Shown here: piece after piece, positions 604 to 37,018 of the stretch
Numbering within the stretch: the first letter of the stretch is position 1
Layout of the letters: each line of letters opens with the position of its first letter
DNA from: a virus
Direction: 5' to 3' (one strand)
IMG/VR virus record: IMGVR_UViG_3300020213_000007
Location: 1 to 37,018 of that record
DNA length: 37,018 bases
Program-made: the position numbers and the translations under genes
Notes under the pieces: generated by a model
The model's input: only the letters and a program-made list of their open reading frames with translations
Database searches by the model: none
What the model was told of the DNA's origin: nothing

Positions 604-854
604 GTGTTCTCTCCTTCGGCGAGGTGGACTTCGAGGTTGCCGCCGGCCCATTCGACCTTTGCCGCGACCTCGACGCGGACCTCGCCATGCACGATGTCGG
701 AAAAGTCGGAGTTGTTGATCCAGTCGGCGTAGTTGCAGATCCACTTCCGCGGCCCGCATATCCGGACCGTGTGGGCCAGGTTGTACGGGCAGCGGACCTC
801 GAGGGTTGGGCCGTCCGCCGAGATGGACACGAAGAACTCGTGGCGGTCACTCAT
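600..854 (-). CDS. Small hypothetical protein (MSDR family)
   Basis: 84 residues, starting MSDRHEFFVSISADG, with three cysteines and several tryptophans and an acidic C-terminus. The ATG at 854 overlaps the end of the last Ser-rich array ORF (ATGAGTGA), and its stop overlaps the next ATG as ATGA. The first four codons and the upstream junction are duplicated at 2276-2305, where only a nine-codon remnant survives. Its role is unknown. Its position immediately after both array blocks suggests it belongs to the duplicated module. Confidence 0.78.
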   Translation of the reverse strand: MSDRHEFFVSISADGPTLEVRCPYNLAHTVRICGPRKWICNYADWINNSDFSDIVHGEVRVEVAAKVEWAGGNLEVHLAEGENT

Positions 855-1074
855 CGTCTGCCGACCCCGACCGCGACGACGACGACCACGAGGACCTCGA
901 CCCCGACCACGACGACGACCCCGACCCCGACGACCACGACGACGACCCCGACGCCGACGACCACCACGCCGACGACGACCCCGACCACGACGACCACGAC
1001 GACACCGACGAGGACGACGACCCCGACCCCGACCACGACCCCGACGACGACCGGGCCAACAGCGCGGCAATCAC
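847..1074 (-). CDS. Ser/Trp-rich array ORF 10
   Basis: 75 residues beginning VIAALLARSSSGS. GTG start overlaps the TGA of ORF 9 (GTGA). The body is a Ser-X-Ser-X pattern with W and G inserts, ending SGSADDE. It overlaps the start of the 84-residue MSDRHEFF gene by eight bases. The same SADDE ending and following MSDR start occur after ORF 5, indicating that the ends of both blocks are copies of one another. The core has the substitution T to I and a synonymous GCA to GCG change. Confidence 0.6.
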   Translation of the reverse strand: MIAALLARSSSGSWSGSGSSSSSVSSWSSWSGSSSAWWSSASGSSSWSSGSGSSSWSGSRSSWSSSSRSGSADDE

Positions 1075-1289
1075 GGGCACCCCGACGCCGACCACGACGA
1101 CCCCGACCGCGACCACGACGGCGCCGAGGACGACTCCGACCACGACCACGGCGACGACGCCGACGCCGACCCCGACCACGACCACGACGGCCACGCCAAC
1201 GCCGACCCCGACCACGACGACCACGACGACACCGACGAGGACGACCCCGACCTCGACGACCGCGATCGGGCCAACAGTGCGGCAGTCAC
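1071..1289 (-). CDS. Ser/Trp-rich array ORF 9
   Basis: 72 residues, VTAALLARSRS start followed by Ser alternating with G, W, A and V, ending SASGCP. GTGA overlaps at both ends couple it to ORFs 8 and 10. It has no recognised domain, signal peptide or transmembrane run in this frame. Confidence 0.58.
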   Translation of the reverse strand: MTAALLARSRSSRSGSSSSVSSWSSWSGSALAWPSWSWSGSASASSPWSWSESSSAPSWSRSGSSWSASGCP

Positions 1290-1510
1290 TGGTACCTCGC
1301 CCACCACGACGACCCCGACCGCGACAACGGCCCCGACCACGCCGACGACACCGACGAATCCGACCACGACGAATCCGACTCCGGTAACGCCGACCGCTGC
1401 GACGCCGACGACGCCGACGAGGCCGACCCGAACAACGCCGACGCCGACGACGCCGACGACGACGACGACCACGACAACCACCGCGATCGGGCCAGGAATG
1501 CGGCGGTCAC
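1286..1510 (-). CDS. Ser/Trp-rich array ORF 8 (most divergent)
   Basis: 74 residues, starting VTAAFLARSRWLSW. This is the most diverged core: ACT to ACC, TTG to CTG and CGG to CGA are synonymous, and CTG to TTC gives L to F. It is also richer in Ala, Asp and Leu than its neighbours and ends SWWARYQ. The excess of silent or conservative changes is mild support for selection on this frame, though the antisense frame shares the same wobble positions. Confidence 0.6.
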   Translation of the reverse strand: MTAAFLARSRWLSWSSSSSASSASALFGSASSASSASQRSALPESDSSWSDSSVSSAWSGPLSRSGSSWWARYQ

Positions 1511-1728
1511 GACCACGCCGACACCGACCCCGACGACGACGACCCAGACCACGACCACGACGACCACGACGACGACGACGAGGACAACGACGACCTCGCC
1601 GACAACGACAACGACGACCACTGCGACGACCACTGCGACGACGCCGCCAACGACCTCGACCACGACGACGACAACGCCGACAACGACGACGACGACGACC
1701 GCGACCGGGCCAACAGTGCGGCAGTCAC
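1507..1728 (-). CDS. Ser/Trp-rich array ORF 7
   Basis: 73 residues, start VTAALLARSRSSSSSL, then Ser with W, L, A, Q and R inserts, ending SGSVSAWS. Start and stop are shared as GTGA with ORFs 6 and 8. Confidence 0.58.
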   Translation of the reverse strand: MTAALLARSRSSSSSLSALSSSWSRSLAASSQWSSQWSSLSLSARSSLSSSSSSWSSWSWSGSSSSGSVSAWS

Positions 1729-1970
1729 GACGACCCCGACGACAACGACGACCGCGAGGGCAACGACCACGACGACGACGACGCCGAGGACGACGACGCC
1801 GACGCCGACGCCGACCACGACCCCGACCACGACGCCGCCGCCGACCTCGACCCCGACCCCGACGACCACGACCACGCCGAGGACGACGCCGACCACGCCG
1901 ACACCGACCCCGACGGCCACGACGACGACGACCACGCCGACCGCGACCGGGCCAACAGTGCGGCAGTCAT
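1725..1970 (-). CDS. Ser/Trp-rich array ORF 6, first of the second block
   Basis: 81 residues. It is the only array member starting with ATG rather than GTG, and this ATG overlaps the TAA of the 91-residue gene as TAATG. This precise junction with an ordinary gene is the best evidence for the minus-strand reading. The product begins MTAALLARSRSAWSSS and continues as Ser with W, G and A. Confidence 0.65.
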   Translation of the reverse strand: MTAALLARSRSAWSSSSWPSGSVSAWSASSSAWSWSSGSGSRSAAASWSGSWSASASASSSSASSSSWSLPSRSSLSSGSS

Positions 1971-2245
1971 TAGACGACCGTGCGCGGCAACGGGTGCAGC
2001 CACGGCGACACATCCACGATCGCGCCGACCGCCAGCACGACCTCACCGGGGTACGGCTCGACGCTGGTCAGCTTGCCGTTCGTCAGCGCGTTGGTCCACC
2101 GGCCCGAGTGTGCCACCCACGCGGCGTCGTCGAGGACGAGCCACTTGTCGCCGATGGCGCGGACGCGGCCGGTGTAGTGGTAGGTGACGGACCGGACAAT
2201 GACGTTATCGCCGACGTTGATCGGGCTTGGTTCGATGTTGTTCAT
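1970..2245 (-). CDS. 91-residue hypothetical protein between array blocks
   Basis: Starts MNNIEPSPINVGDNVIVRS at an ATG preceded by GAAGGGAAC. Beta-rich, with a VGDNVIVRSVTYHYTGRVRAI segment that looks like a small SH3-like or KOW-like barrel (weak inference from pattern only). Ordinary mixed composition, in sharp contrast to the array genes on both sides. Its TAA overlaps the ATG of array ORF 6. It probably marks an insertion into, or the boundary of, a duplicated array module. Function unknown. Confidence 0.8.
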   Translation of the reverse strand: MNNIEPSPINVGDNVIVRSVTYHYTGRVRAIGDKWLVLDDAAWVAHSGRWTNALTNGKLTSVEPYPGEVVLAVGAIVDVSPWLHPLPRTVV

Positions 2246-2275
2246 GTTGTTCCCTTCGGTTGGTTCTTACGGTTC

Positions 2276-2305
2276 TTACGGATTAGAGAATGCGCGGTCA
2301 CTCAT
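2276..2305 (-). pseudogene. Nine-codon remnant of the MSDR gene start
   Basis: ATG AGT GAC CGC opens exactly as in the gene at 854, and the ATGAGTGA overlap with the stop of array ORF 5 is the same as that with ORF 10. The reading frame here then gives only MSDRAFSNP before TAA. It is best read as a leftover of a duplicated array plus MSDR module, or possibly a leader peptide for the downstream 91-residue gene. A tandem 9-base repeat (GGTTCTTAC on the plus strand, about 2262-2280) follows it. Confidence 0.55.
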
Positions 2306-2588
2306 CGTCTGCCGACCCTGACGACCGCGACGACGACGACCACGAGGACCACGACGACGACGACGACGACGACCGCGACAACGACGACGCCCTCGACCGC
2401 GACGCCGACCACGACCCCGACAACGACGACCATGATCGCGACCACGACGCCGACCCCGAGGACGCCGCCGACGACGACCCCGACCCCGGCCACGACGGCC
2501 ACGACGACGACGACCACGACGGCGACCACGACGGCCACGACGACGAGGACCACGACGACCGCGACCGGGCCAACAGTGCGGCAGTCAC
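2298..2588 (-). CDS. Ser/Trp-rich array ORF 5, last of the first block
   Basis: 96 residues, VTAALLARSRSSW start, with many W, P and G inserts in the Ser run, ending SSGSADDE. The C-terminal SADDE and the following MSDR start match the end of ORF 10, which shows that the two blocks share a copied end. GTGA overlap with ORF 4. Confidence 0.6.
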   Translation of the reverse strand: MTAALLARSRSSWSSSSWPSWSPSWSSSSWPSWPGSGSSSAASSGSASWSRSWSSLSGSWSASRSRASSLSRSSSSSSSWSSWSSSSRSSGSADDE

Positions 2589-2797
2589 GAGGACCACGAC
2601 CCCGACGACGCCGACGACCGCGACAACGACGAATCCGACACCGACGACGCCGACACCGACGAATCCGACTCCAACAACGCCGACCACTGCGACGACAACG
2701 ACAACGACGACGACGACCCCGACCTCGACCTCGACCACGACGAGGACCACGACGGCGACCTCGACCACACCGGCCGGGCCAACAGTGCGGCAGTCAC
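2585..2797 (-). CDS. Ser/Trp-rich array ORF 4
   Basis: 70 residues, VTAALLARPVWSRSPS start (Pro-Val in place of Ser-Arg after the core), then Ser with W, R, L, V and D inserts. GTGA overlaps at both ends. Confidence 0.58.
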   Translation of the reverse strand: MTAALLARPVWSRSPSWSSSWSRSRSGSSSSLSLSSQWSALLESDSSVSASSVSDSSLSRSSASSGSWSS

Positions 2798-3135
2798 GAG
2801 GACCACGACCGCGACGCCCTCGTCCGCGTCATCGACGACAACGACCACGACGACGACCACGACGACCGCGACCCCGACGACGCCGAGGACGACTCCGACG
2901 ACGCCGAGGACGACTCCGACGACGCCGAGGACGACTCCGACTGCGACGCCGACTGCGACCCCGACTGCGACGCCGACTGCGACCCCGACCACGACGACCT
3001 CGACGACGCCGAGGACGACTCCGACCACGACCACGACCACGACCACGACGGCGACGACTCCGAGGACGACGCCGACGACGACGAGGACGACGCCGACCAC
3101 GACAACGACGACCGGGCCAACAGTGCGGCAGTCAC
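2794..3135 (-). CDS. Ser/Trp-rich array ORF 3 (longest)
   Basis: 113 residues. The first 45 or so match ORF 2 almost exactly. The middle holds three tandem copies of a 21-base unit (about 2878-2940, SESSSAS-type heptads), and the end departs into SMTRTRASRSWSS. It looks expanded by replication slippage. GTGA coupled at both ends. Confidence 0.58.
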   Translation of the reverse strand: MTAALLARSSLSWSASSSSSSASSSESSPSWSWSWSWSESSSASSRSSWSGSQSASQSGSQSASQSESSSASSESSSASSESSSASSGSRSSWSSSWSLSSMTRTRASRSWSS

Positions 3136-3320
3136 GAGGACCCCGACGCCGACTGCGACGCCGACTGCGACCCCGACCGCGACCCCGACGACGCCGAGGA
3201 CGACTCCGACCACGACCACGACCACGACCACGACGGCGACGACTCCGAGGACGACGCCGACGACGACGAGGACGACGCCGACCACGACAACGACGACCGG
3301 GCCAACAGTGCGGCAGTCAC
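3132..3320 (-). CDS. Ser/Trp-rich array ORF 2 (near-identical tandem copy)
   Basis: 62 residues. Its DNA repeats almost exactly with a period of 185 bases into ORF 1 (cores at about 3129 and 3314), including an SWSWSWSW stretch and the ending SQSASQSASGSS. A very recent tandem duplication is the simplest explanation. Confidence 0.6.
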   Translation of the reverse strand: MTAALLARSSLSWSASSSSSSASSSESSPSWSWSWSWSESSSASSGSRSGSQSASQSASGSS

Positions 3321-3550
3321 GAGGACCCCGACGCCGACTGCGACGCCGACTGCGACCCCGACCGCGACCCCGACGACGCCGAGGACGACTCCGACCACGA
3401 CCACGACCACGACCACGACGGCGACGACTCCGAGTACGACGCCGACGACGACGACGCCGACCCCGACACCGACCACGACGACGACGACCACGACCTCGAC
3501 GACGACCCCGACCTCGACGACCGCGACCGGGCCAACAGTGCGGCAGTCAC
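3317..3550 (-). CDS. Ser/Trp-rich array ORF 1 (first of array)
   Basis: 77 residues, VTAALLARSRSSRSG start. Its GTG overlaps the TGA of the Cys-rich 81-residue gene upstream, so translation of the whole array can be fed from that gene. The C-terminal half is the partner copy of ORF 2. Confidence 0.62.
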   Translation of the reverse strand: MTAALLARSRSSRSGSSSRSWSSSSWSVSGSASSSSASYSESSPSWSWSWSWSESSSASSGSRSGSQSASQSASGSS

Positions 3551-3792
3551 GAGGCTCCCTCGCCGAAAGGTAAGACGCCCTGGCGCGAGCGCTCCGCCAG
3601 CTCCGTCGCCGACATCACGCGCCGACCCGACGGCCGGCAGTCGATCCCGCATTCGTTGCGACACGTCCGGCATCGCAGACCGGGAGTGTGCGCGGCGACA
3701 GGATGCCAACATCGGGGGCAACAATGGACGACGACATCGGCGAACGTGTCGCGACACACCACACATGACCGGTCGGGGGCGGCCGCGGTCAT
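3547..3792 (-). CDS. Small Cys-rich zinc-ribbon-like protein
   Basis: 81 residues. CVVC (about 10-13), CCPRC (29-33), CRTC (41-44) and further C48 and C52 give several pairs of metal-ligand cysteines, so it is probably a zinc-binding fold. The start ATG overlaps the previous TGA (ATGA), and the stop overlaps the first array GTG. It also begins MTAA, like the array proteins, which may be chance. Function unknown; a nucleic-acid or protein-interaction role would be typical for such phage proteins. Confidence 0.72.
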   Translation of the reverse strand: MTAAAPDRSCVVCRDTFADVVVHCCPRCWHPVAAHTPGLRCRTCRNECGIDCRPSGRRVMSATELAERSRQGVLPFGEGAS

Positions 3793-3944
3793 GGGAGCGG
3801 CTCAACGGGCGCGGGTGACGCACTCACCGGCGCGGTGCCGTCGACACAACACGATCGCGGGCAATGCTCGGCACCGTCACGGACCCACTGCGCGCGCGGG
3901 CCGAACCAGCCGCCACACTGCGGGCACCGTCGAAAAGTCGTCAT
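3789..3944 (-). CDS. 51-residue Cys-rich protein
   Basis: MTTFRRCPQCGGWFGP start after a GGAGAG site. CPQC followed by CPRSCC suggests one small zinc-binding knuckle, with a Pro/Ala-rich tail. Its ATG overlaps the stop of the gene before it and its stop overlaps the gene after it (both ATGA), so it is one link in a coupled chain of tiny Cys-rich genes. Confidence 0.7.
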   Translation of the reverse strand: MTTFRRCPQCGGWFGPRAQWVRDGAEHCPRSCCVDGTAPVSASPAPVEPLP

Positions 3945-4192
3945 GGCGTCTCTCCGTTCAGGTCGTCTGGCGGCGCGGAGCGTCCGCGCCAACGCGACGA
4001 GATCCGTGGCACGTGTTGTCGGCACCACAACTGACCCGGCGGCGCCGAACGCGGGCAATGCACACTCGGATCGACAGGCGCACCCATCGGACACCGATCG
4101 CGGGCGGGAGCGGGAGCGACGAACCGGGCTCGCACCCAGTAGTAGACGACGGCGCAACGACCGGACCAGGTGAGGTGACGGAACATGGTCAT
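3941..4192 (-). CDS. 82-residue protein with paired cysteines
   Basis: Starts MTMFRHLTWSGRC at 4192, with GGGAG about nine bases upstream; an ATG at 4200 is out of frame. Cysteines occur as C13, DRC, HC and LWC, with an RSAPPGQLWCRQH segment resembling the end of small treble-clef or HNH-like folds, but no catalytic set is complete. Function unknown. Coupled to the next gene by ATGA. Confidence 0.65.
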   Translation of the reverse strand: MTMFRHLTWSGRCAVVYYWVRARFVAPAPARDRCPMGAPVDPSVHCPRSAPPGQLWCRQHVPRISSRWRGRSAPPDDLNGETP

Positions 4193-4265
4193 GGTGTCAT
4201 CTCCCAACTCTCTTTTTGCGCCGGGCACGTCCGGCACTTCGAGCGGGGCGCCCCACCGAGATTGC

Positions 4266-4478
4266 TCACGTCGTCCTCGGCTGTACGTCCGCCAGACGGT
4301 ACGGACTCTGCCCATCCCCCATATCGACCGCTGCCAGCGTCCCGGACATGGTGCATTGGCAACGCTCAATCGTGGCCGTGGCCGTGTACACCGCGGAAAG
4401 GTCGTCGACATTCACGACCATCTTGTGACACCCGTCCGGGCCGTGCATCTCCGCCGGGTGACCACACCGGCAGGTCAT
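4266..4478 (-). CDS. 70-residue Cys/His protein
   Basis: MTCRCGHPAEMHGPDGCHKM start with an AGAGGTGG ribosome site. The pattern CxCGHxxxxHxxxGC, followed by CQC, is common in small actinobacterial and actinophage zinc-binding proteins. The start lies inside the tail of the frameshifted gene upstream. Function unknown. Confidence 0.75.
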   Translation of the reverse strand: MTCRCGHPAEMHGPDGCHKMVVNVDDLSAVYTATATIERCQCTMSGTLAAVDMGDGQSPYRLADVQPRTT

Positions 4479-4603
4479 GCCGACGCCACCTCTGGTAATG
4501 CGGCGAGCAGAAGTCGCCCGTATGACGCAACCGCCCGCAACCTTCCACAACCTTCCACAACACACGGCGCTGGTGGACGAGGCTTGGGTCCACGCTTACC
4601 CAC
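4366..4603 (-). pseudogene. Frameshifted zinc-finger gene (CxxxxC...CxxHYxRWRR family)
   Basis: A GTG at 4603, overlapping the TAA of the lipoprotein gene, begins GKRGPKPRPPAPCVVEGCGRL and then runs into a nonsense frame. The other frame carries CGRLRHTGDFCSPHYQRWRR, the expected continuation of this small phage zinc-finger type. The two frames are separated by a perfect 10-base tandem duplication (plus strand 4541-4550 and 4551-4560). Deleting one copy restores a continuous CVVEGCGRLRHTGDFCSPHY. The restored gene could run to 4366, overlapping the next gene. It is either a recent inactivating slippage event, a reversible one, or an assembly error. Confidence 0.7.
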
Positions 4604-6713: not shown

Positions 6714-6923
6714 TCATCTCCATCTCGGGTGATCATCGTCCCACCACGACTCGTTGCCGTAGGGCGGTTGGTTCGGGTCATGGTCGTCGTACACCGCCGC
6801 CCGCGACGTAGCGGGCGGTAGCGGACGGCCGGTGCCGGGGTCGAGCCCGGCCGCGATGCGCTCATCTTCGAGGCGGTCGCGGGCGATGAACTGTCGGCGC
6901 TGCGATCGCGCGTTTTCGCTCAT
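6714..6923 (-). CDS. 69-residue hypothetical protein
   Basis: MSENARSQRRQFIARDRLED start; the N-terminal half is a basic amphipathic helix, the C-terminal half is rich in Pro, Asp and Trp. The ATG overlaps the stop of the WhiB-like gene (ATGA). Function unknown. Confidence 0.7.
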   Translation of the reverse strand: MSENARSQRRQFIARDRLEDERIAAGLDPGTGRPLPPATSRAAVYDDHDPNQPPYGNESWWDDDHPRWR

Positions 6924-7327
6924 CGCATCGCCGCTTGGCGATACGAGCGAGACGAGCGAGACTGCATGTCGCGTCGATGGTGGACGGCGCAGACCGGCCC
7001 GCAACATGTCGGGACCTGGCCCGGCGACACGCGCCACCGAAAGACGCGATGACAGCCGGCGCAGCGCAGCGAGCGGTAACGCGCCACGCCGGTCGCGACC
7101 TCGACTGCCCGGAGCTTCTGGCGCTGCTTCGGCGCCAACCCGGCTCTGAGTCCCCAGCGGTCGTGAGTGGCGAACGCGTCGTCGAGGCACTCGGTCGCGA
7201 CGGGACAACGCGCGCAGGCGGCGCGCGTCGTCGGCGGATACGCCGCGCCGTCGCGCCCGTTCGGGCCCGCGGAGAAGAACAGGTTTGTGTCCATGTCTTT
7301 GCACGCCGCGTCGTCCCGCCAGGTCAT
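6920..7327 (-). CDS. WhiB-like transcription regulator with extra Cys cluster
   Basis: 135 residues. The WhiB iron-sulfur set is present: C9, then CARC (C38, C41) and C47, with TNLFF before and DRWGLRAGL after, in place of the usual G(V/I)WGG turn. WhiB-like proteins carry a 4Fe-4S cluster and bind the primary sigma factor; phage members can repress host whiB genes or cause exclusion. Unusually, a second cysteine group (C89, C92, C108, C109, C113) follows, suggesting an added zinc ribbon. The family is confined to actinobacteria and their phages, which points to the host. Confidence 0.9.
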   Translation of the reverse strand: MTWRDDAACKDMDTNLFFSAGPNGRDGAAYPPTTRAACARCPVATECLDDAFATHDRWGLRAGLAPKQRQKLRAVEVATGVARYRSLRCAGCHRVFRWRVSPGQVPTCCGPVCAVHHRRDMQSRSSRSYRQAAMR

Positions 7328-11157: not shown

Positions 11158-11894
11158 CGGGCCCCCTCGAGGACTTGTTGGCTGACGGTGCGGAGCGCGA
11201 GTGCGCCAGTGGCATCAATCGTGATCGCGGCGACGGTGCGGAGCGCGAGTGCGCCAGTGGCATCAATCGTGATCGCGGCGACGGTGCGGAGCGCGACTTT
11301 CCGTGGGCGTGGGTCGGCGACCGCGACTACGGCGACAAGCGCGAACCCGGAGCCGATCGCGACGACCCCAAGAACGGTGCGCGTTCCCGTGACGGCAAGG
11401 GTCGAACCTGACGAGATCGCCGCGGTTCCGTTGACGGTCCGCGCGCCGACTGCGGCGACAAGCGCGAACCCGGAGCCGATCGCGACGACTCCGAAGACGG
11501 TGCGCGTGCCGACAACGACAAGAGTCGAGCCTGACGAAATCGCGACGACTCCGAAGACGGTACGCGTGCCGACAACGGCAAGGGTTGCGCCTGACGAAAT
11601 CGCGACGGTTCCGTTGACGGTGCGCGTTCCGACTACGACAATGGTTGCGCCGGAACTGATCGCGACAGTTCCGAGAACGGTACGCGTTCCGACAACGGCA
11701 ATGGTCGAGCCTGACGAGATCGCAGCGGTTCCGAAGACGGTACGGGTGCCCGTCGCGGTGAGGGTTGCGCCTGAGCTGATCGCGACGGTACCGAAGACGG
11801 TGGTACCCGCGGCGACCTTGGTCGCCGTGTAGAACGGCTGACGCCGGCGCGCGCGGGCCGTGATCGGCCGTCGCGTTCTCGCCGTGAACCTCAC
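11154..11894 (-). CDS. Repeat-rich tail/adhesin protein (20-residue repeats)
   Basis: 246 residues, GTG start after GAGGAG. A basic N-terminus is followed by eight repeats of about 20 residues (residues 30-188) of form GTRTVFGTVAISSGATLxVV, then two copies of a 16-residue unit (ALRTVAAITIDATGAL; DNA period 48 at 11185-11280). The regular short hydrophobic strands separated by Gly/Ser/Thr turns suggest a beta-solenoid or beta-roll shaft. Position at the end of the tail fibre genes supports a host-contact fibre. Repeat number could change by recombination. Confidence 0.8.
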   Translation of the reverse strand: MRFTARTRRPITARARRRQPFYTATKVAAGTTVFGTVAISSGATLTATGTRTVFGTAAISSGSTIAVVGTRTVLGTVAISSGATIVVVGTRTVNGTVAISSGATLAVVGTRTVFGVVAISSGSTLVVVGTRTVFGVVAIGSGFALVAAVGARTVNGTAAISSGSTLAVTGTRTVLGVVAIGSGFALVAVVAVADPRPRKVALRTVAAITIDATGALALRTVAAITIDATGALALRTVSQQVLEGAR

Positions 11895-29948: not shown

Positions 29949-31463
29949 TCACGCCATCAGATCGCCGTCGAGGATGACCACCGCGTCGACACTGTCGAGG
30001 AGATCGACACCCATCGCACAGACGATCGCGCCGTCGATCGGGCCCTTGGACTTGCCCTTGCTCAAGGTGAACCCGCGGTCCGTCTCACGTTTCCGGGCGG
30101 CCACCACGTGAGCGGTCAGCAACACGTCGCCGTCGTGGGCGAACACGCCGCCGACGATCACTTCGCGGAGATGCCCACACGCCGGGGTCATCCGTTCCGG
30201 CGACTGCGGAAACTCCACCATCGGGAGGCCCTCGTCGTCGAGCTGTTGCGCCTCGAACTCCAGGTACCGAGGGTCGTACCCGATTGCCGTCACGTTGTGC
30301 GCGACGGCCATGTCGCGGATGTGTTGGCGGACGTCGAGGAAGTCGATCTTTCCGTTCGGCGCCGGCGTGAAAATCCGGACACGAGCAACGAGCCGATCAT
30401 CGACGCGGCCGAACACTCCGACGGCGGTCGAGTCATGGCGCAGGCTCATATCCCATGCCATCACGCAACCATCGGCCGGCAAGGCGAGCTCCGCAGTGCA
30501 TGCCGCCCACGCCTCCGGCACATCTGCAAGCCAGCCCTCGGACACGTCGTCCGCGTCGACCGGCTGATTCAGATAGAAGCGTTTCGCATCGTTGGGGGTC
30601 GTGTCAGGGTCATGTATCTCGGCGATCAGGCGGTCGAGATCGACCCACGGGGCGTCGCCATACGCGACCGCGAGCGCCGCCCGCAACGCCGCCACGTCTG
30701 CGAAGTCGGCGACAACCGGGGCCTCAACCGCGTCGTACAGCAGGCCCGAAGCGCCTCGCTCCCAGCCCTTGTGTGTCGCCTCCGCGACCGCGCCCACACC
30801 ACGCACGAAAGCGTTCGTCGTCTCCACCGACCGGCCGCCAAGCTTCGCCAAGTTGCGCCGCAGCGTCGCCGCCAACCGCACCCCACCGTTACCCGGCACC
30901 CAAAGATGCGTCTCGTCGAGCACCGCGCATGTGATCGGCTGGCCCTCACGAGACCCCGCCGACGCCGTCACCGGCTCGATCCTGCCCGGCCGACCCGTGA
31001 GAAAGATTCGCGTCAGCCCGGCATCGATGCCGAACTCGTCGACCGCACCCGAGTCGCGCAACATCTCAAGCAACGCCACGTACGTGTTGTCCGTCTGGTC
31101 TTCCGAACAGGCCGCGATCTGCACCCAAGGCGCATCGCGCGGACGGCCAACCGGCTCACCCGACGCGTCCCAACCGGCGAACACGACGTCGCCGACGAGT
31201 TCGCCGAACGCGTGCGCCGCCATGTGCGGGCTCTTCCCCGACCCCTTCGAGCGCCGGCGCGCTCCTCGACGGTAGATGAACCGGCCCGTATCCGCGTCGA
31301 CCGCGTAGAACCGGACCGTGAACGCCGCCTGATCGTCCGTCAGGCGAAGCGGCTGCCCGAACAGCGGGCCACCCGGCACCCGCAGGTACGCCTCGAACAA
31401 GTCGATCAGCGACCAGCCGAGCGACGGAAAGTCACCCTCGAACTCGGGGCCCTTCCATCCCAT
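29949..31463 (-). CDS. Terminase large subunit
   Basis: 504 residues. The ATPase domain has a Walker A-like RRRSKGSGKSPH (about 70-80) and a Walker B VLDETH (181-186). The C-terminal nuclease domain has CVMAWDMSLRHDSTAVGVFG with D338 and the later SKGPIDGAIVCAMGVDLLD acidic residues. It packages DNA into the prohead. The ATG overlaps the small subunit stop (TGATG). Confidence 0.95.
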   Translation of the reverse strand: MGWKGPEFEGDFPSLGWSLIDLFEAYLRVPGGPLFGQPLRLTDDQAAFTVRFYAVDADTGRFIYRRGARRRSKGSGKSPHMAAHAFGELVGDVVFAGWDASGEPVGRPRDAPWVQIAACSEDQTDNTYVALLEMLRDSGAVDEFGIDAGLTRIFLTGRPGRIEPVTASAGSREGQPITCAVLDETHLWVPGNGGVRLAATLRRNLAKLGGRSVETTNAFVRGVGAVAEATHKGWERGASGLLYDAVEAPVVADFADVAALRAALAVAYGDAPWVDLDRLIAEIHDPDTTPNDAKRFYLNQPVDADDVSEGWLADVPEAWAACTAELALPADGCVMAWDMSLRHDSTAVGVFGRVDDRLVARVRIFTPAPNGKIDFLDVRQHIRDMAVAHNVTAIGYDPRYLEFEAQQLDDEGLPMVEFPQSPERMTPACGHLREVIVGGVFAHDGDVLLTAHVVAARKRETDRGFTLSKGKSKGPIDGAIVCAMGVDLLDSVDAVVILDGDLMA

Positions 31464-31891
31464 CAGGCGCCGACGACCCGCAGATGCTCACGACGTGGCG
31501 ACTTCGGCGCGGCAGGCTCCGCGGCCACCTCATCCGCCGCGATCTTCCAGCGGAAGTCGCGCTTGCCCTTCTGGCTCAAACCGAGCGCATCTAGTCGCAA
31601 CCGAACCTCGCTCGCAACCGACACCTTCCCACGCTCCTGGTCGTGGAGCAGATACGCGAGCTGGCGGACCGCCTCCCGATCCGCCGGCGACCACTGCGTA
31701 GACGCGCCATCCGACCACCAGGCTTTCCACGCCAACTTCGCGCCGGCGCTCCATCCGCCGCGCGGAGCTGTCGGCATCGCCGGAGCCCGCCGCAGATTCA
31801 CCGTCGGGATCTCAACCCAATCGCCACGCAACGGGGCCGTACGCCCCCGACGCACAGCCGGGTCCTTCGGCACGCGACCGCGTCCAGCCAT
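31463..31891 (-). CDS. Terminase small subunit-like protein
   Basis: 142 residues, MAGRGRVPKDPAVRRGRTA start after GGAGG. The GRGRxPK opening, the helical middle (AGAKLAWKAWWSDG, ADREAVRQLAYLLHDQERG) and the C-terminal helix RLRLDALGLSQKGKRDFRWK are typical of actinophage small terminase or terminase-adjacent proteins. It directly precedes and overlaps the large subunit gene. It likely recognises the packaging site. Confidence 0.84.
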   Translation of the reverse strand: MAGRGRVPKDPAVRRGRTAPLRGDWVEIPTVNLRRAPAMPTAPRGGWSAGAKLAWKAWWSDGASTQWSPADREAVRQLAYLLHDQERGKVSVASEVRLRLDALGLSQKGKRDFRWKIAADEVAAEPAAPKSPRREHLRVVGA

Positions 31892-31995
31892 AATCCGCGA
31901 CCTCCAGAATCTGACACACTGCGAAAGCGGGGCGAGGGTCTGGGGGTGCCGTGCCGAGGTTGTGATTTTTGCGGGGGTATGCCCCGTTGGTCGGT

Positions 31996-32289
31996 TTAGG
32001 CCTCGGCGTTGCGGCGTTTGCGCGTGTTGCAGGCCCTGCACAGCACCTGGGTGGGGGTGGTGGTGGCGTCGTCGTCTCTCACGTGGTCGAGGGTGAGATC
32101 GGTGCTGGGGTGCCCTGGTGTGTTGACTCCTGGGCATGTCCAGCCGTGGGCGGCGACGTGGGCGGCGATGGCGTCGCGGGAGCGTTGGGGCCAGTCGCCG
32201 CTGTATTTGGCGCGTTGTGCTCGACGGCAGGTGGGGCATCGGGGCCCGGTGGTGGGGGCCTGGCAGATGAGGCACCGGCGGTGTGGCAT
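31996..32289 (-). CDS. HNH endonuclease beside the terminase
   Basis: 97 residues. Cys pairs (C6-C9, C18-C21) and the HNH signature LTLDHVRDD (H69), then VLCRACNTRKR (N88) are clear. Small HNH proteins next to terL in actinophages assist cos or pac cutting with the terminase. The region between this gene and the terminase small subunit (31892-31995) holds only a weak GGGG/CCCC hairpin. Confidence 0.9.
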   Translation of the reverse strand: MPHRRCLICQAPTTGPRCPTCRRAQRAKYSGDWPQRSRDAIAAHVAAHGWTCPGVNTPGHPSTDLTLDHVRDDDATTTPTQVLCRACNTRKRRNAEA

Positions 32290-32358: not shown

Positions 32359-32688
32359 CTATGCGGTGTCTCCTTGCCTTGCCGCATTGGGCCATCGCGC
32401 GCGGCGGATCTGCTTCCGGTCCACCGACCATGCGTATTGGCCGGTCCCCACCGCGGCCGACATCCCCTCTCGGGCGACGCTCCGCGCTCCAACAGCCACC
32501 ACATCGGCCGGCCGCCGCCGCGGGCCCGGCGACGACAAACAGTGGACCCGGTTGTACTCGGCCTTCCTTGCCGCCTGGCCGGGCGGAACCATCAACATCA
32601 TCAGCTGGAGGGCTTCCTCTTTGTCGTGCCATTCGCCATCCGCGCAGAAGCCGTCTAACGCCAGGCGGCAAGGAAGGGCCTGAGTCAC
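32359..32688 (-). CDS. Hypothetical protein, 109 residues
   Basis: GTG start overlapping the ParB stop (GTGA). The N-terminal part CRLALDGFCADGEWHDKEEALQLMML is plausible, the later part (PGPRRRPADVVAVGARSV) is Arg/Ala-rich. Its DNA has mixed composition. No motif is recognised; it may be a real small gene only in part. The 69 bases after it (32290-32358) show nothing clear. Confidence 0.6.
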   Translation of the reverse strand: MTQALPCRLALDGFCADGEWHDKEEALQLMMLMVPPGQAARKAEYNRVHCLSSPGPRRRPADVVAVGARSVAREGMSAAVGTGQYAWSVDRKQIRRARWPNAARQGDTA

Positions 32689-33690: not shown

Positions 33691-33772
33691 CCCCTGTCGC
33701 GAGTGTCGCGTGTGTCGCGTTCGGTTGAGTCGCCCTCCCCCGTCGCGACACTCGCGACACTCGCGACAGGGG
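33691..33772. repeat. Symmetric 3+3 iteron cluster (TGTCGCG)
   Basis: Three TGTCGCG motifs at 33695, 33704 and 33713 are spaced exactly nine bases. Three inverted copies (CGCGACA) at 33744, 33753 and 33762 have the same spacing. Each pair sums to 67463, so the palindrome is perfect about 33731.5. The outer 20 bases (33691-33710 and 33753-33772) are perfect inverse complements. It sits in the only sizeable gap of the right half, just upstream of the ParB-like gene and its hairpin, suggesting a ParB binding site, replication origin or operator. Eight G follow (33769-33776). Confidence 0.85.
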
Positions 33773-33829: not shown

Positions 33830-34414
33830 TCATTCGGTTCCATCCTTTTCTATCGCTTGACGTGCCCGCTTGGCTCGCACCCACTCGGGCAACACTGACG
33901 CTGCGGGGCGTCCCGCACTCGTCCACCAGTCGTAACAGGCCCGACATTTGCCGCCCCGCGGCCGTTGCGTCCGTGACTTGCGGAACGTCTCGTCGCAACA
34001 CAGGCATTGGAAGTGGCGCTCGGGGTCGTACGTAGCGCCGAGGATCTCTTCGTTCGCCTTGAATCGGGCGTCTCGCATCGCTTTCGCCTGGTCGTCCACG
34101 TCGCCGCCGTGGATGTCCTGGCCCATGACGAGCAGCAAAGCGTTCTGTGCTGCCAGCACCTCACGCATCGCCGCTTGGGCTTTGGCGAGACCTTGCCGGT
34201 ACGTGCGATGTTGCGCGTCGAGCCATTGGTCGGTGCGGTCCAGGGTCGGCATCGGCCGGTCGGCACCTCGCGACCCGGACGGGATCGACGTCGACGGCAG
34301 GCCGCCTCGACGGAGTTCGGCGAGACGGGTCGTGAACGTGTAAGGGTCGATGAGCGTTGTCGTTGCCCGGATCTGGGCGAGCATCTCGAGGAGGTCGCCG
34401 ACGCCGACGGTCAA
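33830..34414 (-). CDS. Zinc-finger protein of unknown function, 194 residues
   Basis: TTG start overlapping the preceding TGA (TTGA). The N-terminal 130 residues are helical (DLLEMLAQIRATTTLIDPYTF, GLAKAQAAMREVLAAQNALLL). The C-terminus has CLCCDETFRKSR, then CRACYDWWTSAGRP, a two-CxxC zinc finger probably binding DNA, and a basic WVRAKRARQ. Function unknown; the position favours replication or control. Confidence 0.78.
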   Translation of the reverse strand: MTVGVGDLLEMLAQIRATTTLIDPYTFTTRLAELRRGGLPSTSIPSGSRGADRPMPTLDRTDQWLDAQHRTYRQGLAKAQAAMREVLAAQNALLLVMGQDIHGGDVDDQAKAMRDARFKANEEILGATYDPERHFQCLCCDETFRKSRTQRPRGGKCRACYDWWTSAGRPAASVLPEWVRAKRARQAIEKDGTE

Positions 34415-34872
34415 AACGTCACTGGCTCGTCGAAGGACTCGGCCCGGATCTGGGCCCACGCCAGGTCGAACGCCACGTCGCCTCGACGATGCGCGACGTC
34501 GAGACGTTTTGCCCAGTCGACGACGCCGGCCTTGTCGAGCGCCGTCGAGCAGATCGGCTCCGACCCTTTGCGGGCCGCTTTTGCTTCGGCGACAAGGGCC
34601 CGGACCGCTTCCGCAGATCGTGGCGGTCCTGTCGGTCGGTCGTGGTCGCGTGTGCCGAGTCGTTCATCGGTGCGGGCCCCGCGGCTGACCGTCGACTGGA
34701 ACCCTTCGCCGTACGCTCCCGGATTCGCCGTCAGCTTCGCGTCTACCCATGCCCACAAGTCGTGGACGGAGCCGAACGTTCGTTGTGTCACCGCGTCGCC
34801 AACTAGCACCCGTGCCCAGTATGTCACCTGACTGGCCGGGGCCGTCGCGCCTGCCGGGCGGTCGTAGCTCAT
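34411..34872 (-). CDS. Hypothetical protein, 153 residues
   Basis: MSYDRPAGATAPASQVTYWAR start, ATG overlapping the rep-like stop (ATGA). A small alpha/beta start (TYWARVLVGDAVTQRTFGSVHDLWAWVDA), a linker, then helices (SAEAVRALVAEAKAARKGS). Position next to the replication-type gene suggests an accessory role; no family recognised. Confidence 0.76.
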   Translation of the reverse strand: MSYDRPAGATAPASQVTYWARVLVGDAVTQRTFGSVHDLWAWVDAKLTANPGAYGEGFQSTVSRGARTDERLGTRDHDRPTGPPRSAEAVRALVAEAKAARKGSEPICSTALDKAGVVDWAKRLDVAHRRGDVAFDLAWAQIRAESFDEPVTF

Positions 34873-35585
34873 CGGTGCTGCCACCGCGGCTTTCCGGCGA
34901 AGTAGTCGTCGACGACGTTCGCGACGGCGCCGGGGTGCTTTCCCTCGGTCGCGCACACCCCGAGACAGCGGGCGAGGACATCGGGTTCGATGCCTTCGCC
35001 GAGGAGCCGTTTCGCTTGTTGTCCCGCGGCCTTCGTCCACGCGCTGATCGGCGCTCGGCCTCTGTGGGTGATCCGGTAGTCCTCGACGTACCCGTCAACG
35101 AGGGCCGCGACGGAGGAGGAATCGGGTGGTTGGGGTTGGTCGTTGGGGGTGTCGATGAGGGTTGAGTTATCCACAGGGCCCTTCGCACGGGTGCGGAGGG
35201 AAAGCCCTAAGTTCTCTCGTTCATCGTGGCTCTCATTCCGTGCCGCACCCGTGCCCAGGGGGCCCTCCGCACCCGTGCCCAGGGGGGGCCGCGTGGGTGC
35301 GGACACCTTGATCCAATACAGGTTGGATGTTTGGCCGCGATCGTCGGCCCGCGGCTGTCGCCGTATCGCTCCGAGGTCGTCAAGTTCCGCGAGTGCTCGG
35401 TCGATTGAATCGGCCGAGCAAGTGAGTCGATCGGCGAGAGCGGCTCTCGATGGCCAGCACTTGCCGACGTCGTCGGCGTAGCGACGGAGAACCCCGTACA
35501 GCCGAACTGCCCGATCGGATATCGGCGCGTCGAGCACCCACTCGGGAATGATCGTGAACGGCCCGGATTCGCTACGATGTGTCAC
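34869..35585 (-). CDS. Winged-helix replication initiator-type protein
   Basis: 238 residues from GTG 35585, chosen because GAGAGG lies seven bases upstream; an ATG at 35600 adds five. FTIIPEWVLDAPISDRAVRLYGVLRRYADD through SRAALADRLTCSADSIDRALAELDDLGAIRR is a clear winged helix of the phage replication HTH_36 type. A linker and C-terminal helical domain (SSVAALVDGYVEDYR, GVCATEGKHPGAVANVVDDYF) follow, like DnaD-type or loader-binding regions. It probably binds the origin or recruits the host helicase; no DNA polymerase is encoded. Confidence 0.82.
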   Translation of the reverse strand: MTHRSESGPFTIIPEWVLDAPISDRAVRLYGVLRRYADDVGKCWPSRAALADRLTCSADSIDRALAELDDLGAIRRQPRADDRGQTSNLYWIKVSAPTRPPLGTGAEGPLGTGAARNESHDERENLGLSLRTRAKGPVDNSTLIDTPNDQPQPPDSSSVAALVDGYVEDYRITHRGRAPISAWTKAAGQQAKRLLGEGIEPDVLARCLGVCATEGKHPGAVANVVDDYFAGKPRWQHR

Positions 35586-35615
35586 GTCGATGCCTCTCAT
35601 TCAGGTGTCGGCCAC

Positions 35616-35950: not shown

Positions 35951-37018
35951 TGTGCTCCTCCTGCCGACTCGTCAAATAGTGATGGGGTCCGGGCGCCGAG
36001 ACACGCCGGCGAATACCACAGCGTTTCCGTGTGGCGTGCGGCCTGTACTCCGTCCGGTTTGCTGTTCCGGCCGTACCCGCCCGTCGCGGACCATGACGCC
36101 CGACGCCAACCGTGGTCGAGCAGGGCGTCGTGCTCGGTGCCGTAGCCGGCGAGCACGATCCGGTTGGTGGTGTCGGCCCCGGCGACGACGCACCATTCCC
36201 GGACGGCTCCCGCGACATCCCCGTTGTCGTGGGCGTAGATTCCGCTTGTGCGGCGGTCGTTGTCGTAAGGGCGGGTCAAAGAACACTCCCGCGATCCCGG
36301 TCTCTGACCCGTAGTGCAATGGTGCCGGACCGGTGACACGAGCCCAGTCGCCTACGCAAACCGAGACGTGTTCGAGGCGCGCGGCGATGGCGCGGAACCA
36401 TTGTCGGAGGTGCTCCCCATCGCCCCAGGGGACATCCCCGAGCCCGTCGCCCCGCCCGTCGTCGGCGAGGTCGACGCGCTTACGGTTCACGCCCTGTCCG
36501 TCGTTGCCGAGGTGGACGAGCTGACGTTTCACGCCCCGTACGGGGCCGAGGTGGACGCGCTGACGTTTCACGCCCCGCCCGTCGTCGCGGCGGAGAAGCT
36601 GACCGTCGACGACGTGCCACGGCCCCTTACCCGAGCACCAGCCGCCCCCGATCCAGCAACACGCCCCCCACATCCACCACCCCGCCGCCCGCGGATCGCA
36701 CCATTCGGGGTCGCCCTCCAGCCGCGCCGTCAACGAATCGCGTTCGCCGACCAGCCACGCATGACGCGCATGTAAGTCGTTTTCCGACGTCGGCCAGTCG
36801 GCGGCGGCGGCGGTCTCGTCCGGGTGCCACGCGAGGGACCGCCACACGTTGGCGATGAACCCGTCACTATCGTTCACTATCTCGCGGCGGTTCTGGTGCT
36901 CGACGGGCCGCGCCAGGAGCACGGCCGCGGACCCACAGAACGGCTCGACGTAGCTGTCGACGTCGCCGAGCGCATCCCACACGAGCGACGCGACCCGGGA
37001 CTTGCCGCCCATGTACGG
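35947..37018 (-). CDS. Dam-like DNA adenine methylase, main part, frameshifted at DPPY
   Basis: Continues from the N-terminal part at 1-154. Motif I region YVEPFCGSAAVLLARP (SAM binding) and a central loop with three copies of a GVKRQRVHL-type repeat are intact. At the catalytic motif the frame reads GVFFDPPLRQRPP, while the other frame reads PYDNDRRTSGIYAHDN and goes on to a normal end (VLAGYGTEHDALLDHGWRR). Removing one base of the CCC/GGG run (plus strand about 36269-36271) gives DPPYDND and one continuous protein of about 365 residues. The gene is thus either a pseudogene, a case of recoding, or a one-base assembly error. If active, it would methylate adenine. Confidence 0.85.
36892..37018. 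repeat. Terminal direct repeat, right copy
   Basis: Identical to 1-127; see the left copy. The methylase reading frame is preserved when the two copies are superimposed. Confidence 0.95.

Follow-up and report, generated by a model that had tools for sequence, protein, structure and literature searches.

The genome and the genes around the array

The window analysed here, the whole stretch of 37,018 nucleotides, begins and ends with an exact 127-bp repeat (positions 1-127 and 36892-37018), and the record is therefore taken to be a complete genome, circular and 36,891 bp long. The repeat is probably an assembly overlap of a circular genome and not a physical repeat. A WhiB-like protein, a GC content of about 67%, and relatives of the large terminase in actinobacterial phages together mark the virus as an actinophage. 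Nearly all genes lie on the minus strand, where the order runs from a methyltransferase through the O-like initiator and two ORFs to the array, a hairpin, and the ParB-like gene; the 109-aa ORF, HNH endonuclease, small and large terminase, portal (assigned by gene position only), protease, and capsid follow (Table 1). The array occupies a 209-bp noncoding gap between the upstream operon and the start codon of the ParB-like gene. No sigma-70-like promoter was seen beside it; phage promoters in these hosts may differ.

Table 1. Features of the window and of two comparison loci.
Feature	Position	Strand	Basis or remark
WhiB-like regulator gene	6920-7327		phrog_1333, phrog_14459
Terminase large subunit	29949..31463	-	phrog_9, E 2.8e-64
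Terminase small subunit	31463..31891	-	Terminase_7, E 1.4e-10
Putative cos region between HNH and small terminase	31892..31995	.	analogy with the physical ends of Emotion and Tweety19
HNH endonuclease	31996..32289	-	phrog_333, E 2.8e-5
109-aa ORF overlapping the end of the ParB-like gene	32359..32688	-	possibly winged helix (by eye only)
Diverged ParB-like HTH protein, 311 aa	32685..33620	-	phrog_1033, E 1.6e-8
Hairpin between array and ParB-like start codon	33653..33684	-	no U-tract
Array, left arm	33691..33719	+	CCCC flank, then TGTCGCG x3 at 33695, 33704, 33713
Array, spacer between arms (24 bp)	33720..33743	.	spans dyad axis 33731.5
Array, right arm (inverted copy)	33744..33772	-	sites at 33744, 33753, 33762, then GGGG flank
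209-aa ORF upstream of array	33830..34459	-	CxxC...CxxC motif
Lambda-O-like replication initiator with HTH_36	34869..35600	-	phrog_270, E 1.1e-17
Candidate replication origin inside initiator gene	35167..35305	.	DnaA box and repeats
TGTCGC arrays in primase-helicase genes	L112 88-380; L142 13260-13450		DnaA box in L142

The gene directly downstream of the array encodes a protein whose phrog_1033 match covers residues 43-226. It gives no match to PF02195 (ParB_N) or PF17762 (HTH_ParB) at E<=10, and matches no ParB model of Pfam or NCBIfam. When it is combined with four further ParB-like proteins of phages, the mixed profile finds Spo0J, Noc, and KorB, a repressor, although these matches are carried largely by the four added sequences. 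The segment IDGNHRHEGA ... ANMLNGEPLT resembles, by eye, the ParB/StrR N-terminal motif and provides a lead; a single-sequence structure model (pLDDT 38) was of no use. ParB-fold proteins are common among phages and frequently have domains unlike those found in partition (PMC12704722).

No convincing relative of the ParB-like protein was found. Named phages gave none at E<=1e-5, the best match being a weak one (E 0.5) to a phage protein named after the streptomycin regulator; plasmids yielded none that was convincing, and genome contigs none at all. The search of viral contigs returned two T4-like contigs with only a short segment in common. Two matches in 395 genomes of the class of contig L145, described below, were false, one being a different enzyme by sequence. 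The ParB-like genes of G001, G002, and G007 were rejected as counterparts, since they belong to other phrog families and have other neighbours. In two isolate-derived phage records (L094 and L095), the gene after the ParB-like one resembles a queuine tRNA-ribosyltransferase, which is a different context.

Where are the ends of the packaged genome likely to be? In Emotion and Tweety19, Arthrobacter phages with related large terminases, the genome ends are flanked by the HNH gene on one side and the first terminase-module genes on the other, and there is conserved sequence at the end junction. Several related loci have an HNH gene like that of the window ahead of the small terminase. In the window itself the HNH gene, a 104-bp gap, and the small terminase follow one another in this order, about 1.7 kb from the array, so cos would, by analogy, most likely lie at 31.89-32.0 kb. 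A first motif search for a cos sequence across the loci gave weak similarity only.

Repeats of other kinds are present in the genome. Positions 838-4500 hold a long low-complexity tract of CGACGAC-type units in many degenerate tandem copies, where long ORFs are open on both strands, and positions 11287-11802 hold a tandem unit of about 60 bp with seven overlapping register matches. The 109-aa ORF, for which no homologue was found, contains a second inverted repeat (17 of 18 positions; 32563-32580 and 32659-32676).

Symmetry, rarity, and relatives of the array

The preliminary description reported six TGTCGCG sites with perfect dyad symmetry upstream of a ParB-like gene. All six are exact, three in each direction, with a spacing of 9 bp within each triplet and a dyad axis at 33731.5. 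The symmetry is perfect for the sites and falls short of it for the full sequence: the arms match at 28 of 29 positions because one base in a 2-bp spacer breaks it.

Such an arrangement is not expected by chance. In 100 third-order-Markov genomes of the window's length, there was no TGTCGCG triple, no triple of any 7-mer at 9-bp spacing, and no 3+3 inverted set; in 40 such genomes there was no inverted repeat of the array's quality. TGTCGCG itself is not enriched (33 copies in the genome versus 29 expected). It is the arrangement that is special, rather than the 7-mer. About 85 related phage loci, of which most have a related large terminase, contained no further symmetric 2+2 array. The interpretation as a designed protein-binding array is well supported, and the array is almost certainly the docking site of a DNA-binding protein that controls either the next genes or replication.

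A single near copy was found, in an Acidimicrobiia-binned phage contig of 4.9 kb that carries a head protein and a small terminase (L145; JAOSJM010000002.1, 1289-1358). The two arrays are 77.5% identical over 80 alignment columns, with an E-value that is inflated because L145 was selected by motif search. L145 has the CCCC flank, the TGTCGCGAG unit, and inward-facing triplets, one right-hand site being degenerate. It reads CCCCTGTCGCGAGTGTCGCG-GTGTCGCGTTC, against CCCCTGTCGCGAGTGTCGCGTGTGTCGCGTTC in the window, and its right arm faces inward. It differs in its 8-bp step between sites 2 and 3 and in its setting within a 137-aa ORF that encodes a zinc-like motif and, by sub-threshold Pfam matches, a winged-helix-like segment. 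No protein is convincingly common to L145 and the window. The pair TGTCGCG-NN-TGTCGCG occurs in the genome of L145 at the array locus only and is therefore a property of the element and not of the host, which rules out a host-wide regulon.

The DNA pattern of two inward pairs matched no viral contig. Among genome contigs it matched at three places, in L145, in L147, and between chromosomal genes in L146. The triple pattern occurs in 34 viral contigs, mostly as long coding repeats of the collagen-like kind. Matches in Vibrio phages consist of a single copy and are attributed to chance.

Operator, replication site, or another function

Which function does the array serve? Of the three functions suggested in the preliminary description (partition centromere, replication origin, and autorepression operator), the last remains the best. 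The array is tentatively read as a compound operator through which the HTH protein of the neighbouring gene would probably regulate its own expression, with a probability of roughly 40%. Its symmetric sites lie upstream of the proposed regulator's own gene, and the array ends 71 bp from the start codon. ParB-fold HTH proteins serve as transcription regulators elsewhere, as KorB and the StrR-like regulators illustrate; StrR belongs to the ParB fold. The comparison locus L013, in which a weak relative of the 209-aa ORF's zinc motif is found in the upstream position, before the terminase, lacks both the array and the ParB-like gene. This double absence, a single case, is consistent with the array and the gene travelling together.

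An operator of this type might work as follows. An HTH protein, most likely the adjacent ParB-like protein as the most economical binder, would fill the two mirror-image triplets. Along a triplet, each site would fall about 50 degrees short of completing a helical turn relative to the one before, and the oppositely facing triplets would bracket the 24-bp spacer. Binding may be cooperative along each triplet, with or without bridging over the spacer, and the bound complex would block or divert transcription that leaves the replication genes and enters the ParB-like gene, the 109-aa ORF, the HNH gene, and the terminase. The outcome would be autoregulation, possibly reinforced by the double hairpin of the leader RNA. 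Several points count against the operator. HTH-ParB and StrR-like proteins bind single inverted repeats instead of tandem 9-bp arrays, and the ParB-like protein fails both Pfam models. The closest copy found, that of L145, is embedded in a winged-helix gene on a contig where no protein convincingly matches one of the window, and the surroundings of the window's array show no sigma-70-like promoter.

The main rival, somewhat unlikely but deserving serious attention, is that the array is a replication iteron. An initiator-type winged-helix protein, either the O-like initiator or another that has escaped recognition, would bind the array as an origin, a second origin, or a replication-control site. 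Inverted half-sites of a similar kind are found inside the initiator genes of several phages with related terminases or initiators: TGTCGC-N5-GCGACA in G007, TGTCACG/CGTGACA in G003, GTCACG/CGTGAC in G015, and TGTCCC/GCGACA in L100, whose initiator is among the closest relatives. L112 and L142 also have TGTCGCG arrays, at the 3' end of their Prim-Pol/DUF3987 primase(-helicase) genes; in L147 such an array adjoins a primase gene, and the near copy in L145 comes after a winged-helix coding segment. These four loci (L112, L142, L145, and L147) were found by motif search, and their number is conditioned on the motif. L112 and L142 show that such arrays occur with replication genes, at a frequency that motif-selected loci do not give.

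The geometry argues against this reading. Half-sites in O-like genes are alternating or paired, as opposed to the +++--- order of the array, and among all these half-site loci only L145 shares that order. Dense internal TGTCNC half-sites, alternating or paired and just past the HTH-coding part, were observed in the initiator genes of L022 (3895-4060), L090 (2617-2810), L096 (7505-7690), and L100 (6300-6390).

A further argument against a replication role comes from the window's own initiator gene, which has different iterons. Repeats of CCGCACCCGTGC lie at 35185, 35243, and 35267, with a partial copy at 35295, and the only exact DnaA box of the window lies at 35167. The 10-mer repeat cluster was reached by none of 500 synonymous-codon shuffles and is not explained by the encoded protein. 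Together, the repeats and the DnaA box form a candidate lambda-O arrangement, and the array therefore needs no origin role, though it could still have one. Located 1.1 kb from the initiator gene, lacking a DnaA box, and set in a gap of 63% GC with no adjoining AT-rich stretch, the array is probably not the main origin. A GC-skew minimum, proposed earlier as a check, was not clearly present; skew is uninformative here because nearly all genes lie on one strand.

It is rather improbable that the array acts at the RNA level. Here, the array and the adjacent hairpin, confirmed as perfect with a 13-bp stem and a 6-nt loop, would form a double hairpin that terminates, attenuates, or marks the transcript for processing between the early and the packaging genes. 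RNA folding predicted in the direction of transcription is strong for both the array (-72 kcal/mol, z about -11) and the second hairpin (-28 kcal/mol, z -6.4). However, a hairpin does not need a repeated 9-bp unit, the double hairpin has no U-tract and received no terminator call, and no Rfam family exceeded its gathering score. Moreover, in L145 the near copy is less complementary and lies within coding sequence.

Another proposal, which we consider improbable, is that mirror-image TGTCGCG triplets constitute a mobile phage nucleoprotein module, in which the sequence and the 9-bp step are kept and the partner gene changes. The partners would be the ParB-like gene in the window, the winged helix in L145, and the primase-helicases in L112 and L142.

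That the array is a partition centromere at which the ParB-like protein maintains a plasmid-like prophage appears quite improbable. The ParB-like gene adjoins the array, and the absence of an integrase noted in the preliminary description was borne out by a profile search of the genome, which found neither a tyrosine integrase nor a serine recombinase. RedRock, a cluster A mycobacteriophage that has no integrase either, carries parS loci in which an 8-bp unit is directly repeated eight times (PMC7157519). However, systems of the RedRock type carry parA, and a PF13614 search of the whole record found no ParA-type ATPase at E<=1. The site type is also unsuitable: HTH-ParB proteins load at single inverted repeats of 13-19 bp, and centromere repeat arrays belong to other partition types (PMC13245405, PMC12260392). 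Lysogeny is unsupported because no repressor was recognised, and plasmid-style partition is likewise not supported.

A packaging site (cosB or pac) recognised by the terminase is very unlikely. In its favour, the array belongs to the packaging side of the genome and precedes the start of the small terminase by about 1.8 kb; against it, the ends of Emotion and Tweety19 and the recurrent HNH-then-small-terminase order would, by analogy, put packaging away from the array.

Comparison with known systems

The consequences depend on the protein that reads the array. If it is the ParB-like protein, as the operator reading proposes, this would be an HTH-ParB relative without ParA, in which tandem 9-bp half-sites replace the single inverted repeat, and it would show a route from the ParB fold to a phage switch. 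If it is an initiator, the array would place a replication site of unusual geometry outside the initiator gene.

Of the known systems, lambda-O-like origins resemble the array in that several relatives' initiator genes contain TGTCNC-type half-sites. They differ in being located inside the initiator gene and in their alternating or paired order, and the initiator of the window has other iterons. The RedRock-type parABS systems of actinophages share an iteron array and the lack of an integrase, but they include ParA, and their eight direct 8-bp repeats lie at two loci without mirror-image triplets (PMC7157519). The comparison with KorB, Spo0J, and Noc is based on distant similarity to the ParB-like family in the mixed profile; the sites of these proteins are short single inverted repeats, and the window protein fails the Pfam models.

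The StrR-like regulators Bbr, Dbv4, and AoStrR1 offer a comparison for the operator; the window protein resembles this family only in a motif seen by eye and in the weak match (E 0.5) given above. StrR-like regulators bind spaced inverted half-sites of the form GTCCA-N17/18-TTGGAC, two of them, Bbr and AoStrR1, doing so in front of their own genes (PMC7852140, PMC6022936). The likeness consists of spaced inverted half-sites that start with GTC; the difference is that the StrR-like sites have one half-site per side, 17-18 bp apart, whereas the array has triplets.
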